Source: Yinghuangia soli
Lineage (GTDB): Bacteria; Actinomycetota; Actinomycetes; Streptomycetales; Streptomycetaceae
Direction: 5' to 3'
Assembly: GCF_021502675.1 (NCBI RefSeq)
Contig: NZ_JAKFHA010000003.1
Location: 280,103-344,102 of the forward strand
Length of the DNA: 64,000 nucleotides
Made by a program: the position numbers and the translations under genes
Shown here: one piece after another, positions 5,673-19,692 of the stretch
Numbering within the stretch: the first letter of the stretch is position 1
How the letters are laid out: the number at the start of each line of letters is the position of its first letter
The notes under the pieces: generated by a model
The model's database searches: none
What the model was told of the DNA's origin: nothing
Seen by the model: the letters and a program-made list of their open reading frames with translations, nothing else

Positions 5673-6722
5673 ATGCCGGCACGCGCGGTGTGGAGCGGAG
5701 TGGTATCCCTCGGGCTCGTGACACTGCCGGTGGGCATGTACAGCGCCACCGGCGAGCACACCACCCACTTCCACCAGCTCCAGCGCGGGACCTCCGACCG
5801 GGTCCGCATCCAGCGCGTCAACGAGCGCACCGGCAAGGAAGTCGACTACGACGACATCGTCAAGGGCTACGACCTCGGCGGCCGGTACGTCCTCGTCGAA
5901 CCCGCCGAACTCGACGCGATCGCACCGGGCAAATCCGAACTCCTCGACGTGAGCGGGTTCGTCGACGAGGACGACATCGCCCCGGTGTTCTACGACCGCA
6001 CCTACTACCTCGCACCCCGCGGCGCCCCCTACGCCAAGGTCTACACCCTGCTGCGCACCGCCATGCACGACGCCCGCAAGGCCGGCATCGCCACGTTCGT
6101 CATGCGCGGCAAGCAGTACCTGGTCGCGCTGCGGGCCGACGAGAAGGTCATTACCGCGGAGACCCTCCACTGGCCCGACGAGGTCCGCGACCCCGGCGAA
6201 CAGCTCGACCTTCCCCGCCGCGGCAAACCGCCCGCACCCGAACTGCGCGCCGCCCGGCAGCTCGTCGACGCCATGACCATCGACTGGAACCCCGCCGACT
6301 GGCGCGACACCTACGAGGCCAAGGTCCGCGCGCTGATCGACGCCAAAGCCGAAGACGGGGAGATCGCCGAGGCGGAGCCCGCGCCGAAGGCCACGGACGT
6401 CGTGGACATCATGGATGCCCTGCGCCGCAGCCTCGAGCGCGCAGGAACACCCCGCGACAGGGCCGGCCGCCCAGCCGCCCGCAGCGGGCGCAGCCCGGCC
6501 CCGCGGAGCAAAGCCGGCAGCACAGGCGACCGTACCGGCAAGTCGCGCCGGAAGGGCAAGGCCGTGACGGGCAAGCGCCCCACCAAGAAGGCGGCGACCG
6601 GCGCCGGGCTGAGCGAATTGTCCAAGCAGGAGCTGTACGACCGGGCGAGCCGCATGAAGATCACCGGCAGGTCGCAGATGAACCGCGGCGAACTCCTCGA
6701 CGCCGTCCGCGCCGCATCATGA
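5673..6722 (+). CDS. ku: Ku DNA end-binding protein (non-homologous end joining)
   Basis: A 349-residue bacterial Ku. It opens with AVWSGVVSLGLVTLPVGMYSA and continues with the ring-forming core (RIQRVNERTGKEVDYDDIVKGY, YYLAPRGAPYAKVYTLLRTAM, GKQYLVALRADEKVI) to about residue 255. Bacterial Ku is a homodimer that encircles double-strand ends and recruits LigD. After the core is a basic linker (RSGRSPAPRSKAG, KGKAVTGKRPTKKA), then a SAP-like helix pair at residues ~315-349 (ELSKQELYDRASRMKITGRS), an extension seen in some actinobacterial Ku proteins that adds DNA contacts. It sits between the coiled-coil gene and ligD on the same strand. Confidence 0.95.
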   Translation: MPARAVWSGVVSLGLVTLPVGMYSATGEHTTHFHQLQRGTSDRVRIQRVNERTGKEVDYDDIVKGYDLGGRYVLVEPAELDAIAPGKSELLDVSGFVDEDDIAPVFYDRTYYLAPRGAPYAKVYTLLRTAMHDARKAGIATFVMRGKQYLVALRADEKVITAETLHWPDEVRDPGEQLDLPRRGKPPAPELRAARQLVDAMTIDWNPADWRDTYEAKVRALIDAKAEDGEIAEAEPAPKATDVVDIMDALRRSLERAGTPRDRAGRPAARSGRSPAPRSKAGSTGDRTGKSRRKGKAVTGKRPTKKAATGAGLSELSKQELYDRASRMKITGRSQMNRGELLDAVRAAS

Positions 6723-6875
6723 CCGCCCGGCGAGCGGCCGTCCCGCGGGCGGATTGCGGGCGCGGCGCTACCCCGGACGGGTGTAGCCGCCGACGCCTGC
6801 ACGGTGCGGCTGCGCCGACCCGCAGGGGCCGCAGGTGACGCTGCATATCGAGGTCGTCCCCAGGAGGAGAAGCCG

Positions 6876-8720
6876 ATGCCCGTCACAGTGGTCGAGGGGC
6901 GGCGCCTGGTCCTGACCAACCTCGACAAGGTCCTCTACCCGGCGACCGGCACCCGCAAGGCCGAACTGCTGGACTACTACCGGCAGATCCACAGCGCCCT
7001 GCTCCCCCACCTGCGTGACCGGCCGGTCTCCTTCGTCCGCTACCCCGACGGGCCCGGCGGGCAGCAGTTCTTCGCCAAGCACCCTCCGCCCGGCACCCCC
7101 AGTTGGGTGCGGACCGCGACCGTGCCGTCCAAGACCCACGGCACCCGTACCCAAATCCTCGTCGAGGATCTCGCCACGCTGATGTGGGCCGCCAACCTCG
7201 CCGCCCTCGAACTCCACGTCCCCCAATGGCACGCCGAGCAGTACGCGACGGCCGACCGCATGGTCTGGGACCTGGACCCCGGCCCCGGAGCCGACATCCT
7301 AAGCTGCCGCGACGCCGCGTTCATGCTGCGCGAACGCCTCGCCGCGGACGGTCTGCAGGCATGGGCCAAGACCTCCGGATCGAAGGGCCTGCACCTGCTC
7401 GTCCCCCTCGCCGACACCCCCTCCGACCAGGTGTCCGCGTACGCCAAAGCGGTGGCCGCCGAACTCGAAGCCACGTACCCCGCGCTGCTGATCGCGTCGA
7501 TGGCCAAAGCCCGCCGCGCCGGAAAGGTCTTCCTGGACTGGTCGCAGAACGCCGCTGCCAAGACGACCGCCGCCCCCTACACCGTCCGGGCTCGCGAAGC
7601 CCCCACCGTCTCCACGCCCGTCGCCTGGGACGAACTCGCCGACGCGACCCGCACCGACGACCTCACCTTCGACATCACCCAGGTCCCGGACCGCATCACC
7701 GACCTGGGCGACCTCCTGGCTCCGCTCCTGAACCCGCGCCGCGCCCACTCGCTCCCCCAGCCCCCACCGCCCATGCGGCGGCCCTCCCACGCCCGCACCA
7801 CCGCGCCCACGCCCCGACCTGCACCCGCGGCCGGGCGGATCGTGCTGGAACCGCCGATCGAGGTGATGCGGCCCGGCAAGGCCGCCGCAGTGCCGGCCGA
7901 GGACGCCATGCCCGGCGGCACCCGGTACGAGCTCAAACTCGACGGATTCCGCGCCCTCGCCTTCGCCCGCGGCCCCGGCCGCACCATGCTGCAATCCCGC
8001 ACCGGCCGCGACCTCGCCCCCGGATTCCCCCTGCTCGCCGACGCCATCGCCCACCTGCCCGAAGGCGTAGTCCTCGACGGGGAGATCGTCGCCACCGTCG
8101 ACGGCGTGTTCGCCTTCGAGCAACTGCTGCGCACCCGCACCGCCCGCGAAGCCGATGACGTGGCCGTCTCCTACATCTGCTTCGACCTGCTCGCCCACCC
8201 CGAACACGGCGACCTCCGCCAACACCCTTTGGCGGAACGCCTCGAGCTCCTCACCGACGTCCTGACCGGGGCGGGGCCGCCCCTGGAACAGGTCATGGCC
8301 ACCCGCGATCGCGACGAAGCCCTCCACTGGCGTAACGCCCTCGCAGCAGCAGGCATCGAAGGGCTGGTGTGCAAGGGCATGGCCACCCTGTACCGGCCCA
8401 AGGCAGCCGCGCACCGCTGGCTCAAACACCGCCGGAGCGACAGCACCGACGCCCGCCTGCTCGGCTTCGCGGGCACCGCGCGGCGCCCCCGCACACTCCT
8501 GCTCGAACTCGCCGACGGCCGCACGATCGCGACCACCCCGCAACTGGACACCCGCCAAGCCAGGCAGATCGCCGACGCCTCCGCGGGCCGCCTCGGCACC
8601 CCGGTCCGCGACCCCGAGCACGGCCAGGTCTTCCCCCTGGCCGATCCGCTCGTCGTCGAGGTCGCCCTGAGCACCGGACGCCACGCCACCGCCCGCTTCT
8701 TGCGCCTGCGCGGCGACTGA
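6876..8720 (+). CDS. ligD: LigD, polymerase-ligase form (ATP-dependent NHEJ ligase)
   Basis: A 614-residue two-domain protein. The primase-like polymerase domain comes first (residues ~5-290): LTNLDKVLYPATGTRKAELL, FAKHPPPGTPSW and the catalytic DLDPG at ~132-136, with TSGSKGLHLLVPL. The ATP-dependent ligase domain follows from ~325, with nucleotidyl-lysine motif ELKLDGFR (Lys ~354), VLDGEIV and EGLVCKGMATLYRP. The 3'-phosphoesterase domain of mycobacterial LigD is absent, so end trimming must come from elsewhere. ATG 6876 is fixed by AGGAGGA 7 bases upstream. It fills and seals double-strand breaks with Ku. Confidence 0.93.
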   Translation: MPVTVVEGRRLVLTNLDKVLYPATGTRKAELLDYYRQIHSALLPHLRDRPVSFVRYPDGPGGQQFFAKHPPPGTPSWVRTATVPSKTHGTRTQILVEDLATLMWAANLAALELHVPQWHAEQYATADRMVWDLDPGPGADILSCRDAAFMLRERLAADGLQAWAKTSGSKGLHLLVPLADTPSDQVSAYAKAVAAELEATYPALLIASMAKARRAGKVFLDWSQNAAAKTTAAPYTVRAREAPTVSTPVAWDELADATRTDDLTFDITQVPDRITDLGDLLAPLLNPRRAHSLPQPPPPMRRPSHARTTAPTPRPAPAAGRIVLEPPIEVMRPGKAAAVPAEDAMPGGTRYELKLDGFRALAFARGPGRTMLQSRTGRDLAPGFPLLADAIAHLPEGVVLDGEIVATVDGVFAFEQLLRTRTAREADDVAVSYICFDLLAHPEHGDLRQHPLAERLELLTDVLTGAGPPLEQVMATRDRDEALHWRNALAAAGIEGLVCKGMATLYRPKAAAHRWLKHRRSDSTDARLLGFAGTARRPRTLLLELADGRTIATTPQLDTRQARQIADASAGRLGTPVRDPEHGQVFPLADPLVVEVALSTGRHATARFLRLRGD

Positions 8721-18383: not shown

Positions 18384-18860
18384 TCAGTCCAGGTTCCGGT
18401 TGACTCCGAACCGGCGACGCCACTCGGGGTCATTGCCGACCCTCGCGAGGAAAAGCCTGATGTCCTGAAGTTCCTCCTCCATGCCGTCGAACGCCGGGTC
18501 CGCCTGGTTGACGGGGTCGGCCAGCGGGCCGGAATAGCCCCATGATGCCGCCACCTGGGAACCCACCACGATGCTGAACCGGCAGGCGCCCGGCCGCTCA
18601 TGGGCGTCACGAACAAACCTGACGTCGTCGTCGACCCGCCAGCGCCGACTCCCCGCCTGGAACCACAAACCCGACGCGTCCGCATACACCGCACAGAACG
18701 ACGGATCGGTGCCGCCCGCACCGCTGCGCGCGTTCAGCGACACCCAGCCCACATTCCCGTCCGACTCCCCGGCAGGCCGTTCGGACAGCTCACCACTCTC
18801 GACCGAGAGTGCCCACCTTCCGGCAAAGACGTCCCAGTCCCGCAGAAAGACCGCTGTCAC
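18384..18860 (-). CDS. conserved hypothetical protein
   Basis: A 158-residue soluble protein with no recognised domain. It is rich in tryptophan and aromatics (LRDWDVFAGRWALSVESG, GLWFQAGSRRWRVDDDV, WGYSGPLADPVNQADPAFDG) and ends with an acidic helix, EEELQDIRLFLARVGNDPEW. GTG 18860 has AGGGGG upstream; the open frame starts 16 codons earlier. It neighbours the tRNA-like element, with ~220 bases between. Confidence 0.55.
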   Translation of the reverse strand: MTAVFLRDWDVFAGRWALSVESGELSERPAGESDGNVGWVSLNARSGAGGTDPSFCAVYADASGLWFQAGSRRWRVDDDVRFVRDAHERPGACRFSIVVGSQVAASWGYSGPLADPVNQADPAFDGMEEELQDIRLFLARVGNDPEWRRRFGVNRNLD

Positions 18861-19080
18861 GGCGCTACCCCCTGGCCCGGCAGGGCCCACAGTTGTCAGC
18901 CCCAGCACCCGCGTTGACCCCAGTCAACCTAACGCCAACACATGGGGACCTGGGGAATTACCTGAACTCAGGGGTGGGGAAATACGCGACCGTCGACAGT
19001 TTGCGAGTCCGGGTACTGGCGCGACTTTTGTGGCTTGGATCGGCGTCGTACGGGGTGCGCTGGACAAGCTCACAGGTCGG

Positions 19081-19206
19081 CTGCGGTACCGACGGGATTC
19101 GAACCCGCGGACAGATAGGGGCAGGTCCGCCCCGTCTCCGTCAGTCGCCGTGAGCGGGGCCTCGCCCACGTCGATTGCAATGGGCCGCTCTGCCACGGCA
19201 CCGCAG
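19081..19206 (-). ncRNA. tRNA-like element with non-canonical 67-nt centre
   Basis: Read on the minus strand, GGTGCCG (from 19202) and CGGTACC (19091-19085) form a 7-bp acceptor-like stem, which CTGC/GCAG extends to 11 bp. A D arm follows (GCAG, loop AGCGGCCCA, TTGC) with the G-G of a D loop, and a T arm GCGGG TTCGAAT CCCGT is canonical. Between D and T arms are 67 bases instead of ~22. They fold as a 12-position stem (TCGACGTGGGCG/CGCTCACGGCGA, one A-G mismatch, loop AGGCCC) and a second arm (GACGGA/TCTGTC enclosing GGGGC/GCCCC, loop GGACCT). No normal 7-base anticodon loop or encoded CCA is seen. It could be an aberrant tRNA, a tRNA-derived RNA or a degraded tRNA gene. Confidence 0.5.
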
Positions 19207-19692
19207 CCTGCGAGAATGCGCGCCATCCCGCTCCGGCTCACGGTAGAGGAGCGCCCTGTGCACAGCGAGCCTTTATCCAGAGCCGGCAACCGTTGCAGTG
19301 GGTCCACATAAGTGATGCTGTTGGCGATCTCGGCCGCCGTGTCACTCAGTGGCCCGGGGGCGTGGCCGTTTGGCGGACGGGGCGGGGGCATCCTGGGCGG
19401 GGCTGCGGTGGGGTGGCCGTGGACTTGCAGGTGCCGGCGTTCAGGTGAATGTGCTCAGCCGCGTACGCGTGGAACGCGCCTGCAGCCCAGAACTGATGAG
19501 CAGACGTTACTGACGCTCATGCATAGAGCCACGTGTGCCAGAGTCCGAGTTCCGGAGGCACCTCGGCACGAGTTCGGGAGTCGCCTCGGTCGTGCGGAGG
19601 TTGCTGTGCACGGGATTCAGAGGCACCTGGCGGGTTGACGTCTTGCGGGCCGGTCGATACTTGCGCGGGGATCAATGTGGGGAGCCTGCGCG
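19207..19692. other. intergenic region between the tRNA-like element and the transporter
   Basis: 486 bases with only weak, family-less frames on both strands. It is the only region the tRNA-like RNA could use as a promoter. I see no attachment-site duplication of the T-arm sequence within it. Confidence 0.5.

Follow-up and report, generated by a model that had tools for sequence, protein, structure and literature searches.

A putative tRNA-Ser mimic with complementary arm loops in Streptomyces-type bacteria

What kind of gene keeps the D and T arms of a tRNA and carries two long hairpins where an anticodon arm should be? Such a locus lies on the minus strand of a 64,000-nucleotide stretch of Yinghuangia soli DNA, the whole of which is called the window here. 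A preliminary description, made from the letters of the window, had taken it for neither a standard tRNA nor a simple pseudogene and had left it between a tRNA-mimic regulatory RNA and an aberrant tRNA of the allo-tRNA kind. The known tRNA-mimicking RNAs are, to our knowledge, few (YrlA, tmRNA and viral tRNA-like ends), and a literature search at the level of titles and abstract openings returned no description of this RNA.

Fold and flanks of the locus

The predicted fold of the minus-strand locus had a minimum free energy of -66.6 kcal/mol (z -3.0), which was equalled by 1 of 200 shuffles. In a relaxed scan of 1.3 kb, the generic tRNA model RF00005 reached 29.9 bits on the element against a gathering score of 29, and was the only one of 4227 Rfam families to reach its gathering score; its alignment covered the D arm and the T arm and skipped the 62 nt between them. 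These results confirmed the fold at the place first described, where it had if anything been understated. No family was matched when the whole window was scanned at gathering scores, and ARAGORN, run for both tRNA and tmRNA, called 0 genes in the window. Genes of this kind are thus easily overlooked, as ARAGORN skips the element and the Rfam hit needs a relaxed scan. The window copy scored 148.1 bits with R1, a covariance model built from relatives, and its parts are the following:

19078-19210, minus strand: tRNA-Ser-like RNA core of 133 nt, from alignment A1 and covariance model R1
19196-19208, minus strand: extended acceptor stem of 13 bp, 5′ side, pairing with 19079-19091
19177-19193, minus strand: D arm, 3-bp stem and a loop with the conserved G-G; third pair changed from A-U to C-G and G-C
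19145-19174, minus strand: hairpin 1, at the anticodon-arm place, 12 bp with loop AGGCCC (19157-19162); double changes in 10 of 12 pairs
19110-19142, minus strand: hairpin 2, at the variable-arm place, 6 bp, internal loop, 5 bp and loop GGACCT (19123-19128); double changes in helices 5 and 6
19123-19162, minus strand: predicted kissing helix between loops 19157-19162 and 19123-19128, from helix 4 covariation and a loop permutation test
19092-19108, minus strand: T arm with loop TTCGAAT, near invariant in the alignment

D and T arms with elbow-forming loops were recognised by sequence and by pairing. In place of a 7-nt anticodon loop on a 5-bp stem there is a covarying 12-bp hairpin with a 6-nt loop, which in the window copy contains one A-G mismatch. 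The end stem consists of GGCTGCGGTGCCG paired with CGGTACCGCAGCC. The 7-bp acceptor with longer pairing proposed earlier was retained, with 13 bp instead of 11 bp and with 19078-19210 instead of 19081-19206 as the extent of the feature. Since pairing runs 6 bp past the 7-bp acceptor, with compensatory double changes in this extension, the RNA as drawn would have no free CCA-type end. The two terminal loops, described as complementary at 5 of 6 positions, gave the same count here (one mismatched pair), and all 6 positions pair in the sister-genome copy L004 and in the family consensus AGGUCC/GGACCU. A coding reading was also considered for a 155-aa ORF overlapping on the same strand; indels among the homologues argue against it.

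Upstream of the core, four further features were placed:

19210-19231, minus strand: 5′ hairpin GCGGGA...TCTCGC, sharing 19210 with the RNA core
19240-19245, minus strand: -10-like hexamer TACCGT, with TANNNT at a fixed place among members
19264-19269, minus strand: weak -35-like CTCGCT, with an 18-nt spacer to the -10-like hexamer
19271-19278, minus strand: A/T-rich box upstream of the putative promoter-like hexamers

Among 27 diverse members, hand-chosen from 43 loci, TANNNT stood at one fixed place in 24, compared with 177 of 18,723 background windows (0.9%). An unbroken run of 6 or more pairs formed the 5′ hairpin at its fixed place in 26 of 35 members; at randomly chosen places this was so in 8%. 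Pairwise identity among the 27 members was 0.22-0.24 at -300 to -120, 0.54 at -60 to 0 and 0.66-0.74 in the core, and fell to 0.22-0.25 again from +140. A scan of 18850-19400 for T-run terminators found 0, as did a sigma-70 promoter scan of the same interval with an E. coli-type consensus, which speaks against a simple promoter of that type; the promoter claim is drawn from the fixed TANNNT box. The element looks like a transcription unit, and transcription is suggested by this arrangement.

Covariation and distribution of the family

In an alignment of 33 homologues, one of which (L019) has a foreign 5′ part, 94.1% of the cells of the proposed pairs were paired, compared with 87.4% in shuffles and 36-53% with slid partners; double changes were found at 26 of the 50 pairs, against 13.0 in shuffles. 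The end stem (helix 1) was paired in 94.5% of cells and had double changes in 5 of 13 pairs, three of them outside the 7-bp acceptor; one pair of the extension was seen as C-G, U-G, G-C, U-A and A-U. In hairpin 2, helix 5 was paired in 88.1% of cells (double changes in 3 of 6 pairs) and helix 6 in 94.9% (3 of 5). Compensatory changes across relatives were thus present in both central stems, and the replacement of the anticodon arm by two extra hairpins, as first described, is backed by covariation in the 33 sequences.

The same alignment supported the contact between the loops, with helix 4 paired in 94.9% of cells and its pair 56-94 occurring in five standard types (unpaired in 5 of 33). A second alignment, A2, contained 77 sequences from chosen loci, two of them from phage, of which 74 had both loops of at least 6 nt and three with a shorter loop were dropped. 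A kiss score of at least 5 of 6, taken in the best register with G-U counted as half, was obtained for 70 of the 74. When the 30 distinct loop pairs (GTGCCC/GGGCAT and AGACTC/GGGTCT, for example) were re-dealt, the sum of 154.5 for each loop with its own partner compared with 142.0 +/- 2.35, and 0 of 5000 permutations reached it. As relatedness can inflate permutation tests, more weight is placed on double changes, which recur in the loops. A home-made score for hairpins plus kiss, compared with shuffles, is weak for single sequences (p 0.15 for the window copy and p = 1 for many phage candidates) and is not counted as proof. The suggestion that the loops could kiss is supported by covariation together with the permutation test, and the view that this is neither a standard tRNA nor a pseudogene was borne out by covariation in both arms and loops. 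The structure is under selection, with double changes in the kissing helix and the two long arms as well as in the D stem and the extension of the end stem. The kissing helix could also form between molecules.

The Y. soli genome contains one copy, and a copy 95-96% identical was present in the sister-species genome G001; no copy was found in the third genome of the genus. By DNA comparison, matches at E <= 0.001 were obtained in 48 of 394 Streptomycetaceae genomes; the weakest of them were short and doubtful. With R1, 226 of the 394 genomes matched at E <= 0.001, though the majority of matches scored no more than 56 bits, extended over about 90-100 nt and resembled ordinary tRNAs. At 68.8 bits or more, at least 36 matches were obtained in at least 34 of the 394 genomes, a lower bound given the stricter filters of this search; one of these matches (G187) had a replaced 5′ part. 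The covariance model from relatives thus describes a real family. Outside the family, R1 scored at most 66.8 bits in 394 genomes drawn from the whole class. Of 25 loci fetched for the top-scoring non-members 10 were tested, and each of these 10 had a tRNA-Ser gene at the match; with tRNA-Ser genes as its nearest-scoring non-members, the family appears akin to serine tRNA.

When the D-arm pattern was searched in GTDB contigs, 73 loci were obtained, of which 44 were members at 109 bits or more and the other 29 scored 66 bits or less. The 44 belonged to Streptomyces, Yinghuangia, Embleya, Kitasatospora and Actinacidiphila, some species occurring twice. Four plasmid records matched the element, all of them linear, and contigs longer than 5 Mb carried 11 copies, 9 of which lay within 0.75 Mb of a contig end. 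From these searches, the element belongs to a real, conserved RNA family of Streptomyces-type bacteria.

Mobility and phage RNAs of the same plan

Homology between many loci was restricted to about -117 to +200, and one genome carried two copies 100% identical over 324 bp. The ends of the element are inverted repeats like those at locus L077, in which an ISL3 transposase gene (PF01610) has a repeat on its 5′ side and, beyond the gene, an inverted copy; the L077 repeat matches the ends of L033, L049, L055 and L062. At least one such end repeat was found in 16 of 43 loci and both in 7, and the lineage carrying them has terminal inverted repeats of ISL3 type. ISL3 transposition leaves an 8-bp target duplication, and exact 8-bp duplications flanked four of the seven two-repeat loci (L033, L049, L055 and L056); they were absent at L060, L062 and L064. 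Around the window copy, no such duplication was seen and both ends are decayed:

19012-19033, minus strand: decayed downstream terminal inverted repeat of an ISL3-type miniature element, 4 mismatches in 22
19304-19325, minus strand: strongly decayed upstream terminal inverted repeat, approximate place, seen by alignment only and missed by repeat scans

By its terminal inverted repeats, like those of the ISL3-transposase locus, and its 8-bp duplications, the lineage with end repeats resembles ISL3-type miniature transposons, whereas three plain shorter elements with the same ends (L075, L076 and L078) lack the RNA. Part of the family thus appears to move as an ISL3-type miniature transposon. 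An outer motif near TGGCTYTGTTCACGAGAAC is common to these short elements and L077; it would be a target preferred for insertion or else part of an end repeat that is longer than drawn.

The RNA is also kept in 27 of the 43 loci in which no transposon end was detected. L048 and L052 are syntenic on both flanks (L052 has a 7-mismatch match to one transposon end), and at the L037 site L350 and L351 carry the element, which L349, with an upstream gene 91% identical, lacks. Some copies without transposon ends are thus kept vertically. At two resident sites the intergenic DNA was too variable to place the insertion ends.

Within 9 kb of the element, or less at contig ends, no conserved partner gene was found among the 43 loci. 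The largest cluster of neighbouring proteins, predicted with a home-made gene caller, covered 13 of 43 loci with scattered places and strands, and a cluster from nine loci resembles MFS transporters by eye. In the window itself, two adjacent plus-strand ORFs at 5700-8720 resemble Ku and LigD (end joining) by eye.

D-arm patterns searched in viral contigs led to phage RNAs of the same plan. L281 and L247 scored 73.8 and 70.5 bits with R1; L245 (58.6 bits) and L260 (49.6 bits) scored no better than ordinary tRNA-Ser. For L245, L260 and L283, the link to the family is drawn from the plan, namely two arms with complementary loops. Two clear arms were present in eight phage RNAs (L231, L245, L247, L260, L281, L283, L287 and L302). 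The loops match perfectly over 6 nt in three of the eight, with other letters and still complementary (GUACCU/AGGUAC in L245, GGUGCC/GGCACC in L260, CCAGUC/GACUGG in L283), and over 5 nt in L287; in L281 and L247 manual reading gave 5 of 6, with a longest run of 3, and no convincing match was seen in L231 and L302. A loop-swap test gave 0 of 20,000 for nine hand-picked loop pairs, some of which had been picked because they matched. A blastn search with the window element, L247, L260 and L245 found no relatives in isolated phages. The mobility, the promoter-like box and the same-plan phage RNAs lay beyond what a reader of the sequence by itself could see.

Several other observations were made in the viral screen. 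Its 54 hits included many type II tRNA-like genes with aberrant centres, and many further candidates with different centres stand outside the set claimed here. Complementary stretches in the two central parts were noted in L305 and L342 and, by eye, in L286 and L325. The viral contig L253 carries two tRNAs (7308-7396 and 8185-8278) with anticodon CCG (Arg) on a long-variable-arm body, serine-like by eye, which might misread Arg codons as Ser. L224 (4929-5047) and L269 (12486-12604) share a type II phage tRNA-like gene that, read by eye, has CGC as its apparent anticodon, encodes its CCA and has an oversized variable region, and that drew no ARAGORN call.

Proposed role and alternative explanations

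Taken as a whole, we consider it about an even chance (roughly 0.5) that the element is a self-contained mobile non-coding RNA gene whose product acts in trans as a non-decoding mimic of tRNA-Ser. Comparison supports, in this order, the promoter-like box, the 5′ hairpin and a tRNA-Ser-like cloverleaf with intact D and T arms; a 13-bp stem closes the ends of the cloverleaf, and the arms at its anticodon and variable places are extended, which lets their 6-nt loops pair with each other. The short transcript we infer would fold into a rigid body. The RNA cannot decode, and as drawn it probably could not be charged. Because the D and T arms are intact, the ends closed, the anticodon missing and a partner gene lacking, we read it as a trans-acting mimic of the substrate of a tRNA-handling protein; action in trans is suggested by the absence of a common neighbour with the home-made gene caller. 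By binding a protein that recognises either the tRNA elbow or the serine-type body, the RNA would titrate or steer that protein, candidate targets being SerRS, a tRNA-processing or -modifying enzyme and a tRNA-attacking effector. One lineage travels inside a miniature element that has ISL3-type ends and carries it as cargo; other copies reside on linear plasmids, on chromosomes near contig ends and, if the family is taken more loosely, in the genomes of phages. Sequence comparison supports the structure and the mobility, target and effect are inferred, and a regulatory role is plausible.

More tentatively, these RNAs may form a new class of kiss-locked mobile tRNA-Ser mimics that travel with phages, linear plasmids and a miniature transposon and serve as decoys or regulators of a tRNA-handling protein in the contest between host and mobile element, the loop pair being free to change while it stays complementary. 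A mobile, solitary and strongly conserved mimic with an apparently locked pair of anticodon and variable arms would be a new architecture, and such an RNA would lend itself directly to probing proteins that recognise the body of a tRNA independently of its anticodon.

It is conceivable, though rather unlikely, that the element instead works in cis at 3′ ends, as a terminator or insulator between gene ends or as a structure that serves the transposon. In 23 of 42 loci the closest genes called on either side point towards it, and at the site orthologous to L042 two relatives without the element (L381 and L383) carry plain hairpins with a T-loop-like tip (GGGTTCGTATCCC, GGGTTCGAACCC) in its place. 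However, a terminator has no need of a promoter-like box, a D/T elbow, a tRNA core or a kissing helix, the window copy has no T-run hairpin, and the RNA persists in the loci without a detected transposon end.

We regard it as improbable that a tRNA-like gene is kept here mainly because integrative elements use its 3′ half as an attachment site. Five genomes (L037, L039, L074, L350 and L351) share the left flank and the element and show three kinds of right flank, partly judged by eye, the element's 3′ end being the point at which L039 departs from L037 and L074, and copies of the 3′ part only exist (L050 and L070). Against this, the right flanks of L349 and L352, cited for genomes without the element, differ likewise, and a downstream search in stretches of up to 9 kb gave no second copy of the 3′ half, with one weak upstream match (L057); covariation in the long arms and the promoter-like box would also be left unexplained.

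The closest functional analogue is YrlA, a Y RNA that tethers Ro60/Rsr; according to PMC8394870 it is a non-decoding RNA with a tRNA-like module and paired ends, an idea shared by the element. Even so, within the limits of the RF02553 search YrlA does not fit the element, and identity with it is very unlikely: up to E 10, RF02553 matched the genome in eight places, and the element was not one of them (150 of 1177 first-look candidates were scored). The TROVE-domain (Ro60/Rsr) gene of the same genome (L080, 1442-3066) lies on another contig, C27, not adjacent to the element, with a YrlA match of its own immediately upstream that, at 32.5 bits, falls short of the cut-off of 69. In this Y-RNA-like stretch the T-arm-like part precedes the D-arm-like part, an arm order unlike that of the element.

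Like the element, the phi29 pRNA has two complementary loops and paired ends, and several phage copies lie near terminase-like genes by eye. A domesticated packaging RNA is nevertheless highly improbable, as conservation with packaging genes fails: among loci encoding relatives of two terminase-like proteins, a strong R1 match was obtained in 1 of 80 (the best 80 of 92) and in 1 of 75, in each case the query contig itself, some loci having little upstream DNA. Two other such loci matched weakly (21.2 and 19.5 bits, E 0.43 and 0.87). With strong matches confined to the query contigs, the phage copy is best seen as an accessory gene rather than a packaging module.

There is scarcely more to be said for an aberrant but decoding tRNA, whether intron-bearing or of the allo-tRNA kind, so that of the two possibilities first offered the tRNA-like one stands and the decoding allo-tRNA is not supported. 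The element shares with type II tRNA-Ser the D arm, the T arm and the G after the acceptor strand, whereas it lacks an anticodon arm and has 13-bp closed ends, a 5′ hairpin of its own and arms of 12 bp and 11 bp with complementary loops; no 7-nt anticodon loop is present, and the covarying end stem and long arms, which covary as hairpins, argue against decoding. Allo-tRNAs are related to serine tRNA and are defined by a 12-bp acceptor plus T branch and a decoding anticodon, whereas the element has 13 + 5 bp and no anticodon loop. In a review (PMC7609411), allo-tRNAs and other non-canonical tRNAs are described as active tRNAs, with unusual stems on a tRNA body as in the element, and the words kissing, Streptomyces and phage do not occur in its text. 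A tmRNA, with its tRNA-like domain and coded tag, was not recognised either, the ARAGORN tmRNA search having returned none. Finally, a decayed tRNA gene, with which the missing ARAGORN call would agree, can be dismissed in view of the compensatory changes seen in every helix (33 sequences) and in the loops (77 sequences).
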